DNA of 64,000 nucleotides from Sphagnum magellanicum (taxonomy: Eukaryota > Streptophyta > Sphagnopsida > Sphagnales > Sphagnaceae): positions 22,423,666-22,487,665 of the forward strand of contig CM038919.1 in NCBI GenBank assembly GCA_021904315.1. The letters are read 5' to 3'. The number at the start of each line of letters is the position of its first letter. Position 1 is the first letter of the stretch. The position numbers were made by a program, and so were the translations under genes. The notes under the pieces were generated by a model. That model was not told the origin of the DNA. It worked only from the letters and a program-made list of their open reading frames with translations, and did no database searches. Below, piece after piece: positions 14,700-40,150 of this stretch.

Positions 14700-15180
14700 T
14701 CTCATCTTTGACTGCTGAAGATGTTGTACTAGTTGTTACTTTGGGATTAGGTTTGGAATTTTTTTCTTTTGGGGTTTTGCAGGGGAGGTTTTCAGTACTG
14801 AATATTGCTCAAACATTTTTGGTGATCTTTGAGGTGGTTCTATGATGACTACTAGAGTGGTGAGATCAGAAAGCAACAGCAGTAGCGACAGTAGTACCAG
14901 CTGCAGCAACACTAGAGTAGAAGTTTCTTTCACCAGCAGCATCAGCCGCTTCATAGAATGTTTTCAATGTTCCCAGTTTCGATTCCAAAAGCAACTGAGC
15001 TACTGGAGGGATTATGGACAAACATGCAGAGACACAACCAGTTGATCAAAGTTTGCAAGCGCATTGAAAAGCAGCAAGCTGCTGTTGTAGCTGGATTTTT
15101 GAGCTTGAGGAGGAAGAGGAGGAGGAAGAGCAGATCAGGACAGGAAGAAAATCCTAGATAGAGAGATTCCTGGTCGATCG
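14700..15180 (+). promoter_or_regulatory. probable 5' leader of the SPARK kinase, with upstream ATGs
   Basis: This less AT-rich stretch directly precedes the kinase start and includes a CAG/AGC-rich patch (about 14870-14945) and GGAGGAAGA repeats (about 15105-15130). Two upstream ATGs, at 14842 and 14958, each open a 67-codon frame ending before 15181. If the transcript begins upstream of them, they would act as uORFs and lower kinase translation. I cannot place a TATA box or start site with confidence. Confidence 0.35.
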
Positions 15181-17535
15181 ATGTTGCAGGGGAATTTTTT
15201 CCACTGGTGGTCATGGAGACTCATTCCCTTAGGAGTTTATTTTTGTAGCTGGATGTTGTTGGTGAATCTAGTAGCATGCGCAGCAGATCGATCCGGAGGA
15301 GCAGGAGCAGGAACTGCTTCGACCTCGAGGTTGCTGCAAGTAGCTCCTGCTGCTGCGTTGCAGAGAAACACAAATGTTACAGAATACTCGACGGCGTTGA
15401 CGACGTCTTTCGCAGCTATAAGTCCTTCTCCAGAAACCGGGATAATCGATGGTGGGCAGACTTGCCCTTTGAACTTCACGGCACTGGACAAGTTTCCATA
15501 CGTTGCTCAGCAGGCAGCAGATGAAGCTCTCGACAACACGACGAGATGCTTGGCGTTGCACGACGGGTTGGCAGTGGTGCTGTCCGAGTACCTGAAAAAT
15601 ACGAACTTCTTCCTGGTGCCGGCAGAGACGGCACCTGCGTGTTTGCAAGCTTATGACGCGCAGCTCGCAAAGCAAGGCTTCATGACGAGTGCCACCACCT
15701 TAAGCAGCATGTGTGGCATCTCTGCTTCGGACATAGCTCTAGGCACTGACCATTGCGAGCACATACAGACTCTCGACGATTTCAAGAGATTGATTACGAC
15801 CAACGTCTCGGCGGCAATCAATAACTCTTGTAGCGGAGTTCTCGGCTCCGGCAACTCGCGCTCCACTCTCTGCCCCGCTTGTATCTCCCAGATGCTCATG
15901 ACGTCCACGGCTCTTGGGCAGCAAGCAAATGGGAGTAATATTAGCAGTACTAGTGCCGGGTGCTACAACTATACGCTTGTCTACGTCGGAGCTTTTGTGC
16001 AGCCAGGAGGACCTCTAGATCCGACCGCAGTTGTCTGTCTCTGGAACATCCTTCCTGACCAAGTGCAAGGGATGCGAAGCTCGAAGGTAGTGCATGTGAT
16101 CATCGGAGCAACAGCTGTGGTTGTCGTGAGCATGAGTGCAGCCGTAATCCTCTTCTTGCGCTACAGACAAAGAGAGATCGCGAAGCAGATGGCGTATGTG
16201 AAGCAGACGACGCAGATGGTGGAGTGTTCTTCTGTGAGCGCCGACTTCGCTATGGTGTGGTACAGTCTAGACGAGATGAAAGCCGCCACCCACAACTTCG
16301 CGACCGATACAATCGCGGGATCAGGCGCTTTCGCTAACGTCTATCGAGGAGTGCTGGAAGACGGCACGGAAATCGCTGTCAAAAGGTTCAAGAACTGCTC
16401 ACCCAACGGCGATGCCGACTTCATACGCGAGGTCGAAGCTCTTAGCAACGCGCGACACAAGAATCTGGTCACTCTTCGCGGCTGCTGCATCGCCTCGAGC
16501 AGCAGCAGTACTGGCCAATATGTCATGGGTGTACCGGAAAACCTCCATCAACGGATCATCGTCTGCGACTTCATGCGAAACGGGAGCTTGCACGATTTTC
16601 TTTTCAGATCGCCGACAACTACTGCATCTAGTGAGCAGCTCCTAGAACAACTTTCCGCGAGCAGCAGCGATACTAAAATACTGGATTGGCCCACAAGACA
16701 AAAGATTGCAATCGACATGGCGAGAGGAATAGACTACTTGCACTACAGAGCGCAACCTCAGATCCTCCACCGCGACATCAAATCCAGCAACATCTTGTTG
16801 GACTCGGACTTCAACGCACGAGTATCGGATTTCGGACTCGCCAAGTTTACGCCCGATGGAATCACCCATTTGACCACCCGAGCTGCCGGCACCTTCGGCT
16901 ACATTGCTCCCGAATACGCACTCTACGGCCAACTCACGGAACGCAGCGATGTGTACAGCTTTGGTGTCGTCTTGCTGGAGCTTATAAGCGGCCGAAAAGC
17001 TTTGCTCGCTGGGCCGCTTGCCGCGACACCCACCGCGACACCCACCACACCCACCACGACGATGACGACCACCACGAAGCCCACGACTACGGCAACAACA
17101 ACGCAGGCGGCGGATGAGAATTCCGGCTTCACTTTGATCACAGACTGGGCGAATTCTCTTGTAAAATCAGGAAACTGGATCGAAGTTCTAGACCCGAGGA
17201 TGATGATGATGAACAAAAGCAACAACCCAAATATGTCTGATGATGAAGCTTCTTCTATAAACTATTTGGGAGATATGGAGAGGTTTGTGAACGTTGCTCT
17301 GCTGTGCGCGCATCCGCAGATTGCCTACAGGCCTACCATCACTCAAGCTCTCCGGATCCTCGAGAATGCGCAGCACGAAGTGCCTGTGTTGCCTGACAGA
17401 CCGATTCCTGTGACTCTAGAGAGAAGCAGAATCAATGACGCCGTGGGTGGATCGTCCAATCTCTTCTCCGCTTCGCAAGGGTTTCAGTCCTTTGCAACGG
17501 TCTCATCTCTAGGCAGCAGTTATTTGGCCAGATAG
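15181..17535 (+). CDS. SPARK-domain receptor-like Ser/Thr kinase (RKF3-like), intact and intronless
   Basis: The product has 784 residues. A hydrophobic N-terminus (about 12-34) is a likely signal peptide. A Cys-rich ectodomain (about 93-290; C95, C123, C154, C178, C192, C217, C231, C234, C261, C286) with several N-glycosylation sequons matches the plant SPARK domain. A transmembrane helix (about 303-326) precedes the kinase. The kinase has a glycine loop GSGAFANVY (third Gly replaced by Ala), K401, E417 in helix C, HRDIKSSN (530-537), DFG (550-552) and APEY (576-579), so it is an RD-type kinase expected to be active. Oddities are a Ser-rich insert (about 438-448), a second insert (about 477-500) and a Thr/Pro-rich insert (about 612-645) after the APE region. 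Arabidopsis RKF3, the closest type I know, is also single-exon. The likely role is ligand sensing at the plasma membrane; the ligand is unknown. No intact gene neighbours it. Confidence 0.93.
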   Translation: MLQGNFFHWWSWRLIPLGVYFCSWMLLVNLVACAADRSGGAGAGTASTSRLLQVAPAAALQRNTNVTEYSTALTTSFAAISPSPETGIIDGGQTCPLNFTALDKFPYVAQQAADEALDNTTRCLALHDGLAVVLSEYLKNTNFFLVPAETAPACLQAYDAQLAKQGFMTSATTLSSMCGISASDIALGTDHCEHIQTLDDFKRLITTNVSAAINNSCSGVLGSGNSRSTLCPACISQMLMTSTALGQQANGSNISSTSAGCYNYTLVYVGAFVQPGGPLDPTAVVCLWNILPDQVQGMRSSKVVHVIIGATAVVVVSMSAAVILFLRYRQREIAKQMAYVKQTTQMVECSSVSADFAMVWYSLDEMKAATHNFATDTIAGSGAFANVYRGVLEDGTEIAVKRFKNCSPNGDADFIREVEALSNARHKNLVTLRGCCIASSSSSTGQYVMGVPENLHQRIIVCDFMRNGSLHDFLFRSPTTTASSEQLLEQLSASSSDTKILDWPTRQKIAIDMARGIDYLHYRAQPQILHRDIKSSNILLDSDFNARVSDFGLAKFTPDGITHLTTRAAGTFGYIAPEYALYGQLTERSDVYSFGVVLLELISGRKALLAGPLAATPTATPTTPTTTMTTTTKPTTTATTTQAADENSGFTLITDWANSLVKSGNWIEVLDPRMMMMNKSNNPNMSDDEASSINYLGDMERFVNVALLCAHPQIAYRPTITQALRILENAQHEVPVLPDRPIPVTLERSRINDAVGGSSNLFSASQGFQSFATVSSLGSSYLAR

Positions 17536-19349: not shown

Positions 19350-22300
19350 TCATGTAATGTATGAATCAATTTTACTTTTATATTGATTATGTAACTTTCT
19401 TATAATAAACACGAACACACATTATGCACATCCAATGAACATGATGCACCTCATAATTTGCATGCAACTTCAACATCCACTCCACAATTTTTATTGCAAC
19501 TTTATTGTTTACAATTTTATGTCCGTTTGGGACTAGAGAGTCCATTAGACAAAAGGTAGATCATGGAGGACAAATTGTCCTCTAGTACTGGCCACATGCC
19601 ACAAACTTGGCTAGGGCGACCGTGTTCGTAGTCTGCATGAGCTTAGCAAAAGTGCTCGTGTGGGTGAAGGGCAAGGCCGAACAAAAGTGTTCCCTAACTT
19701 TCTATGTAGTTGGACAAGCAAGGAGTAGGTGCTCTTCATCCTCTACCTTCCCCAAGTTGCAGCCTCAACAAAACCTCTCAACATATGGCATGCCCTTCCA
19801 TGCACCTAGCACTACTTCAAGCTACATGTTACCACACCAAAACCGGACCAGAGCTTTCTACAGTTGAACACAATTGATGTCACACGAGTAGTTTTCACTC
19901 TCGTATGACATACCCTTGAAGCGCAAGTATCTTGTTTGTACGTTGGTCCCAATCTCACAATTGGTAAAGAAATTTTCAATGAAAGCCAGCCACATATTAT
20001 CCTTCACCCTTTTTACACTCAACATTGTGTGGGGAAAACCTAAAGGGGGTGGGGCCCAACCTTCTGAGCTCCCATTCGTACGTTGTGCGCGTTACACCAA
20101 GGTATTTAGTTCTCTGCCCAACCTCTGACCCCTGCTAGATGAGTTGGATGTATGTGCATTGTTTAAAGAACCGTTCCCAACGATGATTGAATAATCCTTG
20201 CCTGGAGCGCACAGGTTGCTGCAAACTAAGGCGCTGTTTCCAGCGGTGGTTGAACTGGAGGCAGAAAACTTACCACCTCTTGGGGCTGATTTTGGAGTAG
20301 CCATTTTTTCACGGATTTAGCCCAACATTTCTTTCCCGCAGCAAGCATAGCGAGCTGGGCTTCCCATTCCTTTCCCAAGATGCGGTTTTTAGTGACTGTG
20401 TTCACATAGTTATAGTACAACAACGCTTGTCCCCATGCCAAATGTCCAAAGGGGAATTTGCCAAATTTTGCCAGCACAATGGACGTGCTGCTTGTTTTTC
20501 ACACCCCAAGCAAGGACTTGAGGAACCCTTCGTACATTACTTCAATAGCCTTTATTTTCTTGGAATCCACCCAAACCTCATGGGCATAGCTTGCTGTGGA
20601 ACACACCAATGTGTTGAAGAGGTCACAACGTAGCTTAACGTCCATAATACGTAGCTCCACCCATCAGTGGTTCAATGCAAATAATGAGTGCCTATTGGTA
20701 GTTGTTAGATCTTCCATTACACTATCTAGGTTCGAGGTGGTCTCGAGCAAGATCCTTAGGTATTTGAAGGTTTGCACATGTTTAATAACATCACGTTCAA
20801 ACACAAACTCCTGACATGGGTCAACAGAATTGAACACCATGACTTTTGTTTTTTTCACGTTCATTGTAAGTCCACGTTCAACACAAAACTACTAGAGTGC
20901 GTCTAATTGTTACTATAGTCCCACCTTTGATTCCAACGTCAAAATGAGGTCATTTGCAAAAAACAACAGTCATATGTGCACGTCTGCTAAGGCCGGTGCA
21001 TCGCATTTTTTACCGTCCAAGCACCCCTCTAGGGCATCCAAATATAGCCCAAATAATAGGGGGTTGAGAAGACAACCTTGCTTCACACCTTGTTGGCACC
21101 TGAAGCTGGAGGTGACACCCCCACTTGGGTGATGATGTGTATGGTATCCTTGGCATACATCATCTGTAGGCATCACACGAAGTGTCCCTCCACCCCAAGG
21201 CTAGCTAACACCTGCCACAACACTTCACACGGCATAATATCGAACACCTTTTTGAAGTCCACAAAATAGAAATAAAGTGGCTTCTTTTTTGCCTTGTTAT
21301 GTTCTATCAAAGTTCGCAATATGAAAAGTTGGTTAGCAGTGCAGTAATCTTTGCAAAACCCAGTTTGACCCTTGGCACACAACCCATGTTGTTCAGCGCA
21401 CTCGTTCAGCCTTTTGTCAAGGATCATAGCGAATAACTTTGCTAAGATAGGTCCAACCGTTATCCCCCTATAGTTGTCAAATTTGGAGGCATCACCCCCT
21501 TTAAAAAATGCGTGGACCACCCCAATGGAAAGGGTTTCTAGAAAACCTTTTGCTAGAAAGCAGTTGAACATTGTCAATAGTGGCATGTGTAGTATATCTT
21601 TCGCATCCAAAATGAACTCAGCTTTCATACCATCCAAACCGACAACCTTATTCCTTTGTAGCTTTTTCAATGCCTGAAGTAGCTCAACAAGTGTCATATA
21701 TGTGTTCAAGGTGTGGCTAGGTGGAGGTTTGGTCACCTAAGCCGAGTGATCAGTTCGTAGTCATACGGGTGGCGGAGACTGGCCAACTAGCCCGTGAAAG
21801 CCTACCAAAAGCGTAGCTGCACTGATCTTGTCCACAATGGGTGCCTTTGGCCGGTACTTTTTCTAGAATGAAAGCACATCCACCTTGGCAAGTGCACACA
21901 TATGTTGAACTCTTGTAATTTCCCAGAATTTTTTTTTAAAATAAAATTTTAAGTATACTTTCTTGATGTTTAGCGGCGTGCGAATTGGGGTTGGCTTTCA
22001 ACTAAAGCTTCAGCTCACGTTTTGTTGTACAATAGTCAACGTCAAACTAGGGTTTATGGCGGTGTTTCTTTTTACAACTTCCTCTCAAAGGCTTGCTACC
22101 AAAAGTAGATTTTACTGCAACACCCACACATTGTTATAATAAGTTAGCTAACCCGTCTACCCCTAGATGCCCAGTCGAGTCAACAACCCACAAGTTTCCA
22201 AAACTCGTTGTTAGGGCAAGCTGATACTCTTTAGCTTTCGATTTATCATATTTAAACCTAAGCAAGAATTTTTCGGTTATAACCATATGTTGTGGTTCAA

Positions 22301-30769: not shown

Positions 30770-31960
30770 CCCCTCTATGTGGTAATCAAAATATTGGTCA
30801 TAAGAAGAAACATTAATTAAGATTAATCATACATTAACTCAAATGATTATTTACACAAATTTGAAAACAAATCATAACATTTGTTTTTAATGATGTAAGA
30901 ATACCTTTTACATTTGTTTCCTTTGTAAAAAAAAAATAATTGAATTTGGTGAAATTTTGGATTAAATAGTTGGATTAACAAATTTGGAGAAATTTTTGGG
31001 TTTAAATAATTTTCTTAACTTGGCAATTTTTGTTGGGAGAAAATTGGAAAAATACTGAAAATTCAAAGAAAAACGTAAATATCAAAAAATTTGTTAAAAA
31101 ATTTCGAATCAAAAATTATTTTTAAAACAATGTTACTTGTAATTAGTAAAAAATTAAAATCAATTATAATAATTCCAATTTTAAACACATAAGCAATTCC
31201 AAGATCAAATTTATTGAAAAACTTTAAGCTCAATCTTTGAAATCATCATAAACCTTATCCAAGGTTTTTGAAATTTTAAAATAAATATTAATGATGTAAC
31301 TAAAGGTTTTTTTGGTGGTGAATTTCCACCATTTTGCAAACATAAAAAAGGCCATCAACATCAATAAAGGATTTTTTTTAGTTTTTAAAAATATATAATT
31401 TTAATTTATAAAATTTACATTTTTAATTTATAAAATTTACATTTTTAATTTTTAAAAATGATATAATTCTACAATGGGTTCTAAAAAGTCTTGTAATCAA
31501 AATATAAAAGTTTTTAATCAATAATTTATTCATTTTCTTAAAGGTTAAAAAAAAACTTGAAATTTCATGTCATGAATAAATCTACAAATCAAATTTTAAA
31601 AAACATTCACCTAAAATATTTCTAAATTCAATGTCAATTCAAAAATGCATTCATTAAGTCTTTTATAATTTTATTTTCAATGCACAAAATATGTCCAATT
31701 TTTATGGAATTGTAAGTTTTTATTTTTTCCAATATAATCATGTAAAATTTATTTATATATTTTTGCGATGTTGTTAAAATGGTAATCATCCATTAAAAGA
31801 TTGCCACATTTGGTTATAGACAAGTTTGTGTAGTTAGAAACTTGTTTAAATCTTTAAAACTTATGGTTATTTATTATATTTTATTGAAAAAAATTGACAA
31901 TATATATTTTAAATTTGACCAAAAAATTCTTTGCAAAAAATCCATTCTTAATGTTGTTGC
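30770..31960. repeat. ~1.2-kb AT-rich repeat, left copy (uninterrupted)
   Basis: It shares an ordered set of words with the right copy: atcatacattaa, taatgatgtaagaata, tggcaatttttgttgggaga, attataataattcca, aatttccaccattttgc, ccatcaacatcaa and tacaatgggttcta. It is AT-rich and has no coding potential. It preserves the state of the repeat without the Helitrons. Confidence 0.7.
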
Positions 31961-32128: not shown

Positions 32129-32138
32129 CTAGTGGGTA

Positions 32139-32153
32139 CCCGTCACCTTCGGG
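32139..32153 (-). other. 3' subterminal hairpin of Helitron A
   Basis: CCCG and CGGG flank a 7-base loop, about 10 bases from the CTAG end. Hairpins here are a Helitron hallmark and are thought to signal termination of rolling-circle transfer. Confidence 0.75.
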
Positions 32154-32999
32154 CATTGTGAAGTCCCCTGGTTTCTTTAAACTCAGTTCATGTTTTAGTT
32201 TTTTTAAGAAACTTTTATCTTTTTTTTTAAATGTGTTTTTTTAAATTATTATTTTGTATAATAAAAATAAAGTGTTTCTTTTTCACTTTTATATTTTTGT
32301 TTATTTGGATGCAAGTTTGAAGTTTGGAGAAAGAAGATACACCTCATTCTTTTTCAAGTAGGGTTTTTCTTCATTATTATAAGTTTTAGTTTTTTTAATT
32401 TTTTACTCTTTATTTGGTTTCTTCATTTTTGTAAATTTTTTTTCTTTTAAAATTTTTTTACTGTATTTCCCTTTCCTTGTTTCATTTGTTTCCATTCCTT
32501 TTATATAGTTTTTGCGTTTTTACTTTTTTTTTTAATGTTTGTTTATGACTTGTCTTCCAAGTATTCTCTGATAGCACTGTGGTATGTATTGTGCGTGTGT
32601 GCGTGCAAGATTGGGTGTGAATCAAAACCCATCATTCCATTTGTCAAACCCAGAAAGATGAAGCTTTTGCCACTGCTATCAAATACATGTCTAAAGAAGA
32701 AAGTTTGTACAATGTCAGGAGTTTTGCTCTACTGAATTATGAAGCTTCAGTTACCACATTCATAGATTGATGTATGTGAAAGCTTGAAGCAAAGCAATAA
32801 AAAATTGGAAAGAAAGCTGCAAGCAACATGGCTGACTGCGGTAGGTACATACTTATCTAGAAAAAATGGAACAAACTTCTCCAATGCTCTGGAGTCTGCA
32901 ACAACTTTCCTTTGTATATTGTTTTGAGATCACAGGAAGTATTCAAGTATCATCATCATCAACAGGGTGTAAGGCATCATGAGAAATTCATTGGCATCA

Positions 33000-33175
33000 G
33001 TATTCAAGTGTGAGAGAAGAGTCTCTTGTTCTTACAAAAACTTTTGGAGCAACTGCTGCATTGGGAAGATAATGCCCTTTGTGATCCATGTCTTCATTTT
33101 GGTGATGAGTGTGTTTGTACAGGTAGTAGAACAGCAATGCTCCTAAAAATGTGTCTGCAAATTCAAAGCGCTCAC
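33000..33175 (-). pseudogene. possible extra captured exon, unassigned
   Basis: On the minus strand a polypyrimidine-poor acceptor (ttgaatttgcag) is followed from about 33159 by a coding-like run, DTFLGALLFYYLYKHTHHQN, and then KGHYLPNAAVAPKVF. It is less AT-rich than flanking DNA. I do not recognise the protein; it could be a membrane-anchored segment. It is not the expected next LIG4 exon, since no KFDG motif is present. Confidence 0.3.
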
Positions 33176-33445
33176 ATAAGTTCAAAGGGGTAGACACCTG
33201 AAGCTTATGTACACAGCAGTAGCAGTAAGGACGACACCACAACTGATCTAAGATTGTTGAGAACCTCTGGATCTCGTTACTATGTTTAGAAACTAACAGG
33301 ATTGTTGCCATCACTACCAAAGTGGATAACTTGAGCAGTAATTTTGATACAGATCCAGACGCAGTTTGTTGATTGAAATGCAATTGCATCGCACATGCCT
33401 ATAGGAAGAAAGCTTGAACAGAAGGAATGCAAAATACATGCACTG

Positions 33446-33447
<2 letters not shown>

Positions 33448-33476
<29 letters not shown>
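33448..33476. repeat. CA microsatellite in Helitron A
   Basis: About 14 uninterrupted AC/CA units lie downstream, in element orientation, of the LIG4 fragment. Confidence 0.95.
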
Positions 33477-33477
<1 letters not shown>

Positions 33478-33594
33478 CTTGCACAATGCAGACACAGATG
33501 GTCATACAAATGCAAACAAAAGAAGCAAATGAGAAACCATATAAACACATATGCAATCATGGATATAAAACTCACATAGACATGCATGTGCATG

Positions 33595-33745
33595 AAGCTC
33601 CCCTATGTTACAGAAGAAGCATCAGCCTCAAGAGGCCCCCTGTGTTGCATAAGAAGCATCAGAAGAAGCCCTCATCATCATCATCATCACCATCATGAAG
33701 CTCTCTGTGTTGCAGAAGAAGCATAAGAAGAAGCCTCACTCATCA
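33595..33745. repeat. imperfect GAAGC/ATCATC-rich tandem repeat
   Basis: The phrase gaagctcccctatgttacagaagaagcatca is echoed twice more (near 33640 and 33700) with a (CAT)n run between. It lies directly 3' of captured LIG4 exon 5. Confidence 0.6.
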
Positions 33746-33773
33746 TCAGCATAAAGGTTGATGCAAAAACTAC

Positions 33774-35044
33774 CTTCTTCCAGGCTTCCTCCACATTTCC
33801 AACCCTTGCTGCCAGTTGAGGTCGGACTGCCTTTCCCACTTCTATGTCCTGCCACCATGGAGAATCCCTGTGAGCTGAGCAATAGAAACTGATAGTACTC
33901 ACTTGTGAACTCAGTACAAACATGATGCTCGGATTTTGGGTTCAGGGTCTTTACCTGTCGCTTGTACCGCTGATTGCGGTCACAAAGTTTCTCACACACC
34001 AGCTTCAAGTCACATGTTACATTGAAGAGGTCCTCTGCATCAAGGTGAAATACACTGAAGACTGTCTTCTCACTGATTCCAAGCTTCAATTCTGTAGAAT
34101 TGTTCCCAGGAATGTTAGCTATGGCTCAAACACATTTGGAAGTGCCAGTCAACATGTTTGGTTTCAACACTGAAGCAAATCAAGAACCACTGCCTAGTCA
34201 GTTGTATGAATGAGCTCCACCTTGGTGATTGCAACTAACCTTTCAAGATAATCATGATAATCCATCTCATTTCCTGCACATTCGTCCTGTTGATGAGCTC
34301 TGCCAGTACTGCAGTCTTCTCCTTACTACAGAGCAACAGAACAGGGAATAAACATGAGCGATAATTCATCAATAACTCGCCACAGTGCACAATCCTTTCT
34401 GAAAATCTGCAATTCCCACTAGCTAGGGTTTGAAAGAGCACAACCTATCCTGAGCCGCAGCCAACCGGTCGAGAAATCTGTTCATGTCCCCGATCTTGAG
34501 CCCACCGGATCCCGTCTTCTGCCTGCGGTAGAGCACCTGCATTCTCCACCCGGACAAAAAAAACCATGGATTTCAGGCTTTGCACAAATCTACTAAAAGC
34601 TTTGGTCAATGATTTGCAAAGCAAGTCCAACACTCTGGCACTGATGTGACTTAATTACAGCAGAGCAACAAACACATAACACACAATACGACAACAATAA
34701 AATCATACCTCAGCGGCAACAAAAGGGAAATTGCCCGCATTGCTACCAGCCCGCTGGCCACCTTTGCGCCAGTTCTGCAGCTTTTTAGCATCCTCCGCAT
34801 CTTTGGACAAACCTAGCGCCTCAGCCAGCAACTTAGTGAGCACGGCCTCTTTTAGTCCATAGTTGGCACGCTCCTTGTCGAGTTGAGGAAGAATCAAGCG
34901 CATGGCACCAAAGTAGTGACGTGAACTGTAGACATACTCTAGAAACGTATGCAAGTGCTTTCGCTTGATTGTGGCTTTACTACGCGCTACTGCGTCCAAC
35001 ATCCGGCACAACACCGCAAACTCCACCGTCTCGTCATCACTCAT
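33774..35044 (-). pseudogene. LIG4: captured DNA ligase IV, exons 1-5 (N-terminal DNA-binding domain only)
   Basis: Minus-strand exons are 35044-34709, 34536-34445, 34325-34240, 34091-33955 and 33848-33774 (336, 92, 86, 137 and 75 nt). All introns are GT-AG, and splicing gives 242 uninterrupted codons from ATG 35044 (MSDDETVEF). Diagnostic words, in order, are [65 protein letters not shown] and [13 protein letters not shown], which match plant LIG4, the NHEJ ligase that works with XRCC4. Capture ends at EEAWKK, just before the exon expected to carry the catalytic K-x-D-G lysine, so the product could bind DNA but not ligate. The intact frames and splice sites suggest recent capture or selection. 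Expression is unknown. It has the same orientation as the Helitron. Confidence 0.93.
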
Positions 35045-35213
35045 CTTTCTTTCCCTATACCCTTCTTGCACACAAAATCTACAAATCTTACAACAACAAA
35101 ATTCCACAAAAACTCACTTACGCTACAAAGCTTAGGACGAAAATTTCCACAATTGCTGTTGAATTACAACACATAACTCGAGGCGATCTGATCATCACAA
35201 AATCTCGCAACAA

Positions 35214-35346
35214 AATGGGCCTTCGCGTCGACGATCTTCTCAAGCAAACGCCGGTCGGCAATTTCGCCGCGGCCCACAATTCGACAGTTGAATGTTTCTC
35301 TGATAGAGAGTGGATCTCCATCAGAGAAACCATGATCAAGGGTTAA
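35214..35346 (+). other. divergent GC-richer frame, 170 bp from the LIG4 start
   Basis: A plus-strand ATG at 35214 opens MGLRVDDLLKQTPVGNFAAA and runs 44 codons in GC-rich sequence, head to head with the captured LIG4. It could be the first exon of a divergent neighbour captured together with a shared promoter, or chance. I do not recognise the peptide. Confidence 0.3.
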
Positions 35347-35795
35347 TGGAACTGGGAAGTCTTTCTGAAACTTGCATTGTCCACAGTACCAAGAAGACTG
35401 AGTAACTCACTCATGGCTTCAGGAATCACAACAAGATCTTCAGGAATGGTGACAGGATCCATTGCTGCAATGTTATTCACATCATCTAGTTGCTCAGCGT
35501 CGCTTCGGGCGTTTGGTTCATGCTCCAACAACTCCTGAGCCTCCATTTCATTCAAGAGATCATGAAATGTCGTCAACTCTTGAGCCTCCATTTCATTCAA
35601 GAGATCATGAAATGTCGTCAACTTCTGAGCCTCCATTTCATTCAAGAGATCATGAAATGTCGTCAGTGTGGAGGGGATTCCATCGAGAGGCTGCTGCTCT
35701 AGGACGAAGTTGAAATTCTCTCTTGCCTCTTCTTCTTCTTCCAAAGCCACTACGGCATCATGAGTAGGAACTTCTGCCGCCTCTGACTCTGATCG
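35343..35795 (-). pseudogene. acidic coding-like segment with a triplicated 15-residue repeat
   Basis: The minus-strand frame is open from about 35795 to the stop near 35343. It reads as an acidic, Glu-rich protein piece (LEEEEEARENF) with three copies of LTTFHDLLNEMEAQ and ends TSQFH. The repeat is 45 bases long, three copies, at about 35531-35665. It is probably captured exon sequence expanded by replication slippage. The family is unknown. Confidence 0.45.
35531..35665. repeat. 45-bp tandem repeat, three copies
   Basis: The phrase gagcctccatttcattcaag, followed by agatcatgaaatgtcgtcaa, is repeated three times with almost no divergence, which points to a young expansion. The period is a multiple of three and stays in frame on the minus strand. 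Confidence 0.95.
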
Positions 35796-35976
35796 AAGGC
35801 GTTATGACACTCAGGAAAGCAACCATGAAATCATCTTTTTCATTTGCTGACTTTGGCATTTTCTTCGAGTTTGCAGCCAGTGCAACCATCTGCAATGAGG
35901 GACATGGTTTTCAGCCAAAGGTAAGCTTCCTTGACCACTTCTCTCTAGGCGCTTCCACGTACTGCCTTAAAGTTGT

Positions 35977-36240
35977 TCATCTCTTACTTTTGAGCTCCTT
36001 TGGTGTGACGATCCCCCATAAGATGTCTCCCCTCTTCGGCAGCTTCGGACAGGTACTTTTCTTCTCTATGCCTCCATTTGGTTTGGACTGGTACTTTTCT
36101 TCTCTATGCCTCCATTTGGTTTCTGTTGTTGCTGGCCCTTCATCGCTCGTTGTTGCTGGCCCTTCATCGCTCGCTCTGCTAAATTCCTGTAGACCACACA
36201 AAAACAATTTCGCAATGCTAAAACAAACTACGCTAACAGG
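35977..36240 (-). pseudogene. unassigned captured segment with two short tandem duplications
   Basis: On the minus strand an acceptor-like tggtctacag (about 36191-36200) is followed by an open stretch with ASDEGPATT twice. A second duplication, of a 37-base unit (PNGGIEKKST-type), lies at about 36050-36125. I do not recognise the protein. Both duplications are nearly perfect and therefore young. Confidence 0.35.
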
Positions 36241-36396
36241 ATTACATGAACATGTGGATAAACTGTTGTCATCGCTATGAGTCGTCGTCTTCCTTTTGTT
36301 TCATCATCTTCTTCTTCCGGGATAAAGAACTTCCGGGACGGATGATGGGATGGATGGATGGAAAGAACGACCACCCAAGGATATTATATAAGTAGA
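36240..36396. repeat. 5' terminal homology shared by Helitrons A and B (copy in A)
   Basis: About 150 bases, including cttccgggacggatgatggg and accacccaaggatattata, match 39100-39251 closely. The two elements therefore belong to one Helitron family. Confidence 0.85.
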
Positions 36397-36490
36397 CTAG
36401 TGGGTACCCGTGACCTTCGGACATTGTGAAGTCCCCCGGTTTCTTGAGCATATCATGAAAAATGAATTTTAGGAGCCACCTTGCCAGCTG

Positions 36491-37880
36491 CTAAAAGTCA
36501 TAACGCTGAGATGCTGCTGCCTTCTGCTTGGCATTGGCTGATGCCCCTGCTACAGTTGTTTCTGCCATCTCCCCCCTATCGTCAGCGCTGATTGGCATCA
36601 GCACCTGCATTGGTCTAGCTTTCTGTGACCCGCATACGAAGAAGAGCATTTGGAGGGTCTAGTAGATTTATGATGGAGTCAAGGGCCAGAGTGTAAAAGA
36701 CTAAAATCAGTGTATGTCTACTGCATAATTTGCCATGTATGCCCAAAGGAAGAGCAAAAGAGATAATGCACTTCTCAAGTTATGACTATGATAGATTAGA
36801 TGGAGTTTCTCATTTTGCTGGATACAACTCTTACACCCATTTCTCTTGATCTGCTCTTGGTTCAAATTACTCTCCTCTTTACACTTTCTCTGAGTCTTGT
36901 CAACATCCCATGAACAACATGGATATAGTTCTAGTCAACTTTCATGCTACATATCACTTTCTTCTTTAAACCATACATGGGCGCTTGAGGGTACCACCCA
37001 GGTGTTGACATAAAAAACTTACAGAATTGAAAATACCGCTGAGATCAAGTTCACAATAGCAAACCAATTTGTTTCCAGTTAAGTGAGCCTGTAGTCATGA
37101 CATAGAATTGGTGAGGAATGATAAACACCTTAGTGACAACCAGTATTTCTAAATAGTCTCAAATCAGATTTGTTACTTGCGACTTATCTCATTTGATAGC
37201 AGATATTCAAAGACTAATGAAAGGAGGAGAAATAAAGCCAAAAAACTTACCTCATGGACAGAGACACGGACAATTCGTGGGCCATTTGCCTCGAGTACCA
37301 CTGTTCTCTCTTGCAACAGAAAGGCACAACTCTTAGGACAGTTTTGGATTGAGCAAGTCAGAGTCAAGAAACTAAGCACACAACTTACCAGATGTGAGTT
37401 AGTTATATAACTACTACTATTTGAACTTGAGAACAAAAAGATGTGAAGAGACTTACAGATTTCCATTCTGGCTTGTCTGTGCTGGAACAAAAAGTGAACA
37501 CAAAGACTTAGTTTATCAGGAAAGGACAATGGATTGTCTATGGTGTAACTTGACACCCAGTAATTAGATGCAAGAAGAGAGAGACTGAATTTCCAAATGT
37601 ATGGGTTGGACATTTCAACGGGTATTGGTGGTTCGCTTCTTCGTCAGCTTGCAAGGCGGTCACGCGATCTGACCTTGGTGCACTAGCAGAAGAAGAAGGA
37701 TGGGAGATGTTGCTGAACAACCGGTAGGAAATGCAAAAGCCACCTTCCATTGGAGATGCAAGGGTTGGAGTCCAACCCACCACCACGGCCTCCCTTCTTA
37801 GCTCCTCCACTCCTGTTTGACATGATGATCTCACCACCGCTCAGTTGTTGGGAGCTACTCGGATTAGCTCTTCGTCTCAT
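36491..37880 (-). CDS. four-exon small gene inside Helitron B, complete ATG to stop, function unknown
   Basis: Minus-strand exons are 37880-37744, 37481-37457, 37307-37251 and 36622-36491 (137, 25, 57 and 132 nt). Introns are GT-AG (for example ATCT/GTAAGT and CATGAG/GTAAGTT), and the phases join exactly to 351 nt, meaning 116 residues plus stop. The protein starts MRRRANPSSSQQLSGG, is Gly/Ser/Lys-rich and basic for about 45 residues, and has a conserved-looking core (TDKPEWKS, then RTVVLEANGPRIVRVSVHE). It ends in an Ala-rich tail (AKQKAAASQRYDF). I see no signal peptide or membrane segment and do not recognise the family. The 25-nt exon and the exon 3 acceptor (AG at 37309-37308) are the least certain. 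It is probably a host gene captured whole. Confidence 0.55.
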
Positions 37881-37987
37881 AGCACATCATCCCTACAACG
37901 GCAGCAGTAGTAGCTTTCCTCCCTCTTCGCAATGCACATAAAGAAGAAGCTCCTCCTCTGATCAAAACAATCTCTCTCTCTCTTAGA

Positions 37988-38256
37988 CCCGTAGACCCCA
38001 GTTCATCAACTTTTGCTCTTCATGATCTTCTTCTGTAGTTGCTAAGGAAGAAGAAAAAGACTTGCAGCAGTAGCAGCTTCTATGTTGTACTACTTGGAAG
38101 CTATTGTTGGTTACAACCTCGCAAATGTTGGTCCGGCTTTAAAAAACGTAAAAACACTGCTGTAACATCCCGTAGACCCCAGCTCATTAGCTTTTGCTCT
38201 TCATGATCTTCTTCTGTAGTCGCTAAGGAAGAAGAAAAAGACTTGCAGCAGCAGCA
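37988..38256. repeat. ~90-bp direct duplication in Helitron B
   Basis: Copies at about 37988-38077 and 38169-38256 share cccgtagaccccag, ttttgctcttcatgatcttc and aggaagaagaaaaagacttg with few differences. The spacer is about 90 bases. This may be a duplicated 5' untranslated segment of the captured gene just to its left. Confidence 0.85.
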
Positions 38257-38533
38257 TGATAGTTAATGATTTGATGCTAGAAACCTAGTACTTGATGATT
38301 CTCAATTCTATTGTGTTTTTTGTTATTGTTCCTTTAGTGGTGCCTGCAAAGAGTTGAGAAGATGTTGACTCCTTTGAACTTCATTTGCTCGCTCCTATTC
38401 AACACATACATCTCCTACTTCAAGTTTCTGAACCGAGTCCATTATGTAGAGCTAAGTTTGTGTGCACAACAACTGTGGGATGTGCCGCACCCTTGGTTGA
38501 ACATTTTCATCCTTGCATCTTCCATGACCACTT

Positions 38534-39028
38534 TCAACTCCTTGGTGTTTCAGCAGCTTGTTCCTGTGGAATACGGCGGACCCCCACCATGTATTTGAGA
38601 TTCTTCTTCAAGGCATGAATGCTTTGTGTCTTATGGGTAGACTCCATCATTCCCTCCAAGACAATTTTGGTCACAATAACTAGCTTCTGTCGCAGTGTAG
38701 TGCATGCAGGGCTTGCACGAACGTGATGATCATGAGATATTATGCGGCCGTCTTGCAGGTGCTTGATCATGAGATCATCATGCACCACCGCCGCGTGCTG
38801 CTGCTGTTGCTTTTCCTTCTTCTGCAACTGCTTTGCATGAAGAAGCTCAACCTGCAGGTGGCGCTTAGATTCGTGACCAAAGAAGAAGTTGGAAAAGAAG
38901 GAAGCAACGCGGTGGAAGAGTCTCTCCAAGAAGAAAATCTTCTCATTCAACCTCTCCTTGATGAAGCTTGAGGTTTGTAGTACCGTTTTCCAGCAGCTTA
39001 CATGTTCAAAACTCCAAAGATGGTGCAC
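38534..39028 (-). CDS. unassigned Gln/Lys-rich 164-codon frame in Helitron B
   Basis: This is the longest single frame in Helitron B. It begins MHHLWSFEHVSCWKTV and contains a charged segment, LLHAKQLQKKEKQQQQHAAV. It may represent captured exon sequence or chance in a less AT-rich stretch. No domain is recognised and no splice support was found. Confidence 0.3.
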   Translation of the reverse strand: MHHLWSFEHVSCWKTVLQTSSFIKERLNEKIFFLERLFHRVASFFSNFFFGHESKRHLQVELLHAKQLQKKEKQQQQHAAVVHDDLMIKHLQDGRIISHDHHVRASPACTTLRQKLVIVTKIVLEGMMESTHKTQSIHALKKNLKYMVGVRRIPQEQAAETPRS

Positions 39029-39251
39029 AACCGCTGCACCACCAGTTGTACCCGCGCGCTCGACCTCTTGATGTTCTCCTTGTGCAGCAGCAGGATTAGA
39101 ACTTGTGTGGATAAACTACTGCCGCCACCACCATGAGTCGTTGTCCTCTTCCCATTCCTCATCTTCTTCTTCCAGGATGAAGAACTTCCGGGACGGATGA
39201 TGGGACGAATGGATGGAAAGGACGACCACCCAAGGATATTATATAAGTAGA

Positions 39252-40150
39252 TATATATATATTAATGATGTAAGAATATATTTTACATTTTATTTCATTT
39301 TAAAAGTAAAAAATTTTAATTTGATGAAATTTTTTAATTAAGTAGTTGGATTCCCCCTTGCCCCCAACATATTTTTTTGGTTTTGAATTTCCTAACTTGG
39401 CAATTTTTATTGGGAGAAAAATGGAAAAAATAGTGTAAATTCAAGAAAAAATGAAAAAATAATTGTCAAAAAATTGAAATGAGAAATTAAAAAAAAGGTT
39501 ATTATTAAAGAGTAATTTTTTGAAAAATAATTATAATAATTCCAACATGAAACACATAAAAAATTCTAATATCAAATTTATTTGAATTTAAAAAGTTTTC
39601 TTTGAGATCATTATAAACATTATCCATTTTTTCAAAAAATTTAAAATAAATATTAATGATGTAATTGATTTTTTTGGTGATGAATTTCCACCATTTTGCG
39701 AACATAAGAAAGACCATCAACATCAACAAAATATTTTTATTTTTGAAAAAGTTTTATATTTAAAAAATGATATAATTTTATAATGGGTTCTAGGACTTAT
39801 AGCCAAAATATAAAAATATTTTAACAAAATTGAACCTCCATATATGACTTATAACCAAAACATGGCTAAATTTTTTTATGGATAATCTTGAAGAAAATTA
39901 CAAAATTGAAAGAATGAAAAGATTAAAAAAATCATTGATGTCATTATTATTATCACCATTTATAATTCATTCATTTAAGTTTTTCAAGAAAAATTTAAAT
40001 TCATTTCTTAATATTTAGACATAAATCTGTAACAAAATGAGCTTATAGAAATTGATAAATCATGTTTAAAATAAAAATAAGTATAAAATATTGATAATTT
40101 TTCATAATAATAATAATAATTTTAAATTTTAAAATTCAAAATTCCATTTT
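39252..40150. repeat. ~1.2-kb repeat, right copy, remainder after the Helitrons
   Basis: The repeat resumes with tatatatatattaatgatgtaagaata, matching the left copy at about 30887, and runs colinearly through aatttccaccattttgcg and ataatgggttcta before fading near 40150. The two Helitrons therefore split this copy. Confidence 0.7.

Follow-up and report, generated by a model that had tools for sequence, protein, structure and literature searches.

A Helitron with a truncated LIG4 copy, probably a fairly young gene capture, in Sphagnum magellanicum

Five exons of a DNA ligase 4 (LIG4) gene lie inside a Helitron in the window, by which we mean the whole stretch of 64,000 nucleotides that was analysed. 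This element, Helitron B, is very probably a non-autonomous transposon carrying a truncated LIG4 copy that was captured fairly recently and most likely has no function. We observe the exons themselves, the Helitron ends that enclose them, a sister Helitron in tandem and a paralogous site without the pair (Table 1). An earlier note on this DNA gave 33774-35044 as the extent of the feature; that range is right for the LIG4 part, but the element itself occupies 32129-36396.

Table 1. Coordinates of the LIG4 exons, the two Helitrons and the repeat copies (window positions)
Feature	Position	Strand	Basis or remark
LIG4 exon 1, with ATG, 112 codons, 336 nt	34709..35044	-	matches DNA ligase 4 (PDB search)
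LIG4 exon 2, 92 nt	34445..34536	-	AG/GT borders
LIG4 exon 3, 86 nt	34240..34325	-	AG/GT borders
LIG4 exon 4, 137 nt	33955..34091	-	AG/GT borders
LIG4 exon 5, 75 nt, then GT donor	33774..33848	-	GT donor is GTAGTT
Helitron B, 4,268 bp, holds the LIG4 piece	32129..36396	-	ends common to A; 5' TC, 3' CTAG, 3' flank T
Helitron A, 2,855 bp, head to tail upstream of B	36397..39251	-	ends common to B; CTAG/TC junction at 36397/36396
3' end of B: predicted 6-bp stem and 7-nt loop, plus three outer pairs, then CTAG	32129..32168	-	fold
Three exon-like pieces in Helitron A (37481-37457, 37309-37251, 37088-37023)	37023..37481	-	AG/GTAAGT borders, picked by eye
5' flank: dispersed repeat copy R1, interrupted by the A+B pair	39252..39831, resumes 32128-32043	-	flank alignment
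Paralogous site without the Helitron pair: repeat copy R2	30818..31073	-	homology to 5' flank runs to ~31526

Five in-phase exons of the LIG4 N terminus

Joined on the minus strand (35044-33774), the five exons give 726 nt, or 242 codons, in phase and with no stop. All four introns between them run GT...AG. The five exons, the in-phase GT-AG splicing and the 242 uninterrupted codons described in the earlier note all hold up on this strand. GC content is 0.51 in the exons versus 0.39-0.45 in the introns. Readthrough past exon 5, with the last donor unused, would add 26 codons before a stop, for a total of 268 amino acids. We also considered a processed retrocopy, which is ruled out by the retained introns.

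Searches with the translation identify the fragment consistently. In the PDB, all seven distinct sequences listed at E ≤0.001 were DNA ligase 4, with 3w1b at the top (E 1.3e-39; query residues 7-237 against chain residues 15-258). DNA_ligase_A_N was the sole Pfam family at E 0.001 (E 2.7e-37). The NCBIfam model TIGR00574, which covers the ATP-dependent DNA ligase superfamily, matched at E 4e-26 with 91.8 bits; its cut-off for whole proteins is 217.8, which a partial protein would not be expected to reach. Compared with a provisional Arabidopsis LIG4 sequence, 144 of 240 positions were identical by BLAST and 145 of 240 in a three-way alignment. A tblastn search of the window with this provisional sequence found each of the five N-terminal exons (E 1.8e-27 to 4.1e-5). 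Judged by these matches, what the five exons encode is a LIG4-type N-terminal DNA-binding domain.

The copy stops ahead of the nucleotidyltransferase, OB-fold and BRCT parts, and the catalytic KxDG lysine is absent from its 242 codons. In the provisional Arabidopsis protein, we take this lysine to lie 11 residues beyond the point matching the fragment's last residue. With its end about 11 residues short of the lysine, the fragment appears to be cut at an exon border just ahead of motif I. The earlier note was right that the lysine is missing; its statement that the lysine should follow immediately is slightly loose, since the residue would come some 11 positions further on. In the PDB search, the alignment with human LIG4 stops at chain residue 258, and the catalytic lysine of the human enzyme is K273 (PMC3664939).

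Helitron ends, sister element and insertion site

Helitrons are recognized by a 5' TC and a 3' CTRR. We found TC at 39251 and at 36396, where B begins with TCTACTTATATAATATCC, and CTAG ending at 36397 and at 32129, where B closes with ...GGGTACCCACTAG. The ends are spaced 2855 and 4268 apart, as two elements that abut would be, and the CTAG/TC join between A and B is a G/T junction. The first 18 and last 13 bases of A and B are identical; their 5' ends agree at 83% over 165 columns and their 3' ends at 94% over 49, with no other A-B match at E 0.01. Tandem copies of one Helitron are ruled out, because A and B are alike only at their ends. Only two places in the window match a 24-base segment of the 3' end at up to three mismatches, and 100 shuffles gave no such match. 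Viral and prokaryote contig collections held no exact match to a 25-base pattern of the 3' end. Weighing against the capture reading, there are only two copies of the ends to compare, no autonomous partner came to light, and the 3' end of A does not form the hairpin predicted for B. In B, the predicted stem ends 8 nt before the terminus, whereas the 3' end of A folds differently (RNA parameters, no shuffle control).

Elements A and B have 50 open frames, of which we scanned eight, seven against Pfam and one against NCBIfam; none of the eight matched a RepHel transposase. The Pfam matches in these frames were weak and all below curated cut-offs (the best, DED, had E 0.0028 and 18.3 versus 35.9 bits), and the lone NCBIfam match had E 0.15; we take them as chance. 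Helitron B is non-autonomous as far as seen.

Both elements contain further features. In B, three 45-bp direct repeats with 96% matches (35529-35665) lie in a 152-codon frame, and their period is a multiple of three. Upstream of LIG4, an inverted repeat at 35295-35329 with 10-base arms (TTTCTCTGAT...ATCAGAGAAA) may mark the junction of a capture or a former terminus. An open frame at 35215-35346 (+), beginning MGLRVDDLLKQTPVGNF on the strand opposite the LIG4 start, could be exon 1 of a divergent neighbour that was taken up along with the LIG4 upstream region; it had no Pfam match, and its best PDB match had E 0.48. In A, the last two exon-like pieces join in an open frame (RTVVLEANGPRIVRVSVHEAHLTGNKLVCYCELDLSGIFNS); the first piece does not share their phase. 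The peptide assembled from these pieces by eye, with the out-of-phase first join, found no match in Pfam or the PDB. Perhaps they represent another captured gene.

The DNA around the pair points to an insertion. An A precedes the 5' end of Helitron A and a T follows the 3' end of B, as in A/T insertion without target duplication. Over 39262-39763, the DNA 5' of A shares 75% identity with 30887-31404. When we joined the flanks (39450-39252 and 32128-32043) and compared them with 31073-30818, a single match spanned the join, which indicates that the 7,123-bp Helitron pair interrupts a dispersed repeat. At the insertion point, this alignment has gaps 23 and 4 columns long in a (TA)n run; the others, of at most 13 columns, fall in the 5' part. 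The paralogue lacks the (TA)n run, which obscures the exact join. On its own, the 3' flank scored 64 against R2, compared with a maximum of 44 among 200 two-base-block shuffles (46 in a longer comparison). The order of insertion may have been B and then A, at the canonical A^T formed by the host A and the first T of B, or A and then B at a G/T site. The ends that A and B have in common, the A and T beside them, the presence of a sister element and the uninterrupted paralogous repeat copy together bear out the earlier note's assignment of the LIG4 exons to a Helitron.

We weighed these observations against a resident LIG4 gene, disrupted or with long introns, in which the Helitron ends would be due to chance or to separate insertions. 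Five exons and a start codon do look native, and the earlier note had acknowledged that its reading would fall if this were the resident gene with its remaining exons nearby. We looked for them throughout the 64 kb. Neither the 33.8 kb downstream nor the rest of the window yielded a further catalytic exon; tblastn of the whole window with the human and provisional Arabidopsis catalytic regions gave a best E of 0.72. Matched Helitron ends also flank the LIG4 segment, and the repeat around them has a paralogue that lacks it. Because the A+B pair interrupts a repeat that has an uninterrupted paralogue within the window, we conclude that LIG4 is not resident here, and we regard the resident-gene account as extremely improbable. 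In viral and prokaryote collections, pattern searches for LIG4 relatives selected 3 and 30 stretches, none of which was confirmed by tblastn.

From the capture reading, we infer a route, a fairly young age and a lack of function. The Helitron would have copied the 5' part of LIG4 at the DNA level, introns included, beginning at or before the start codon and ending shortly after exon 5. The element would then have landed at a TA-rich spot in the dispersed repeat, beside its sister Helitron. Its reading frame would most likely have stayed intact owing to the fairly young capture and not to selection.

Elsewhere in the window, an uninterrupted 807-codon frame at 15112-17532 (+) encodes a SPARK-domain receptor-like kinase and is probably a resident gene. 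Kinases of this type are plant proteins, in keeping with a land-plant origin of the DNA. A reverse transcriptase remnant at 21176-21736 (-), matching Pfam RVT_1 at 2.7e-7, is possibly LINE-like. Rfam gave no matches in the window at gathering score, and ARAGORN gave no tRNAs.

Frame integrity and possible function

How much an intact frame says about selection depends on how readily a neutral copy would lose it. Random substitutions in the LIG4 fragment make a stop in 3.9% of cases (kappa 2). We also ran a simulation of neutral copies that included splice sites, the start codon and indels, with 2,000 runs per setting, an indel-to-substitution ratio of 0.05-0.15 and 80% of indels assumed to be disabling. 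Fully intact copies made up 26-46% at 1% divergence, 6-21% at 2%, 2-11% at 3% and 0.6-5% at 4%. The simulation implies that the intact frame means either neutral divergence below about 3-4% per site or constraint. The earlier note's choice between recent capture and constraint was a fair pair, but recent capture suffices by itself under the assumptions of the simulation, in which 26-46% of neutral copies are intact at 1% divergence and 6-21% at 2%. Against a young, neutral copy, constraint would likewise be expected to leave all 242 codons open and every internal splice site in place. Comparison with other LIG4 proteins gives no sign of extra constraint. At 102 sites where human and provisional Arabidopsis LIG4 agree, the fragment keeps 75 (27 differences); at 94 sites where human LIG4 and the fragment agree, the provisional Arabidopsis sequence keeps 75 (19 differences). 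The numbers of unique differences, 27 versus 19, do not differ significantly (chi-square 1.4).

We consider the copy most likely to be a truncated pseudogene. If transcribed, it would yield at most a DNA-binding domain of about 242-268 residues that, going by the parts it retains, would be unable to ligate or to bind XRCC4. The earlier note suggested that such a product could compete with full-length LIG4, and we consider it very unlikely that the fragment is expressed and selected as a ligation-dead DNA-binding domain competing for DNA ends or for an Artemis-like partner. The intact frame and splice sites would suit such a role, as would the solved structures of 240-243-residue LIG4 chains covering this domain (4hto, 7d9k and 7d9y). 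Vertebrate LIG4 also binds Artemis through its DNA-binding domain (PMC3664939). XRCC4, however, binds the C-terminal BRCT repeat of LIG4 and stabilizes the protein (PMC3664939). The fragment ends long before this region, and with no BRCT part there would be no link to XRCC4, which leaves competition weakly motivated. Youth can moreover account for the intactness, and the 27 versus 19 comparison, which uses the provisional Arabidopsis sequence, reveals no extra constraint. As it stands, the competition proposal is unsupported.

Small RNAs against the parent gene were the other role proposed in the earlier note. The genes captured by maize Helitrons, Pack-MULEs and Sireviruses are described as siRNA reservoirs that act on their donors (PMC13317346), which gives a precedent for small RNAs from the copy that would silence the parent LIG4 or direct its methylation. 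With blastn at E up to 1, we found no inverted or second LIG4 copy in the 64 kb, so nothing indicates that the locus forms a hairpin source by itself; the proposal is unsupported within the window, and we regard this role as unlikely. There is likewise very little chance, in our estimation, that the copy is expressed from the captured LIG4 start and that a selected DNA-binding protein or regulatory RNA made from it dampens end joining. Were that so, dampened end joining could favour the Helitron's own integration or recombination. It would be surprising if the copy acted in end joining, and nothing so far supports such a role.

Comparison with known Helitrons and with DNA ligase IV

As a truncated gene copy inside a Helitron, the element fits, by analogy, the maize pattern of gene-fragment capture. 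More than 90% of the maize helitrons identified in one study carry captured gene fragments (PMC3288121), and captured pieces are characterized as mostly 'dead remnants' that are transcribed at times (PMC4528327). Maize helA and helB resemble Helitron B in their CTAG 3' end, their internal host-gene fragments and their multi-exon pieces able to splice (PMC3288121, PMC4528327). The cargo differs, being LIG4 here, and the likeness is one of description and not of family sequence comparison.

The closest parallel to the tandem arrangement is an adjacent head-to-tail pair in maize, which likewise has a CTAG/TC join, a G/T junction and separate contents (PMC2267711). In both cases the insertion order is ambiguous, and the maize authors left it open (PMC2267711). 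The maize pair carries S-receptor kinase and aldose reductase genes (PMC2267711), whereas A and B carry sequence of no assigned gene and LIG4, respectively. On visual comparison, the 5' ends of A and B, which read TCTACT, depart from the 5' pattern of maize HelitronFinder, TC[CT][CA]TA... (PMC2267711). Being off this pattern, as far as it is shown there, A and B do not belong to that maize family. Helraiser, the reconstructed bat element, resembles A and B in its TC and CTAG ends and its AT target (PMC4778049). It also has a hairpin near its 3' end (PMC4778049), for which the predicted counterpart here is clear in B only. In contrast, Helraiser encodes RepHel (PMC4778049), and none was recognized in the 8 of 50 scanned frames of A and B.

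DNA ligase IV itself shares the N-terminal DNA-binding domain with the fragment; the nucleotidyltransferase, OB-fold and BRCT parts belong to ligase IV only. The locus could therefore be mis-called as a LIG4 gene, which annotators should bear in mind. Judged by titles, the literature we surveyed held no report of LIG4 capture by a Helitron. Helitron capture of gene fragments is a known kind of event, of which the LIG4 cargo is a new instance, and the locus offers a clean, boundary-resolved plant example with a sister element, a G/T junction and a paralogous site without the pair in the same window.
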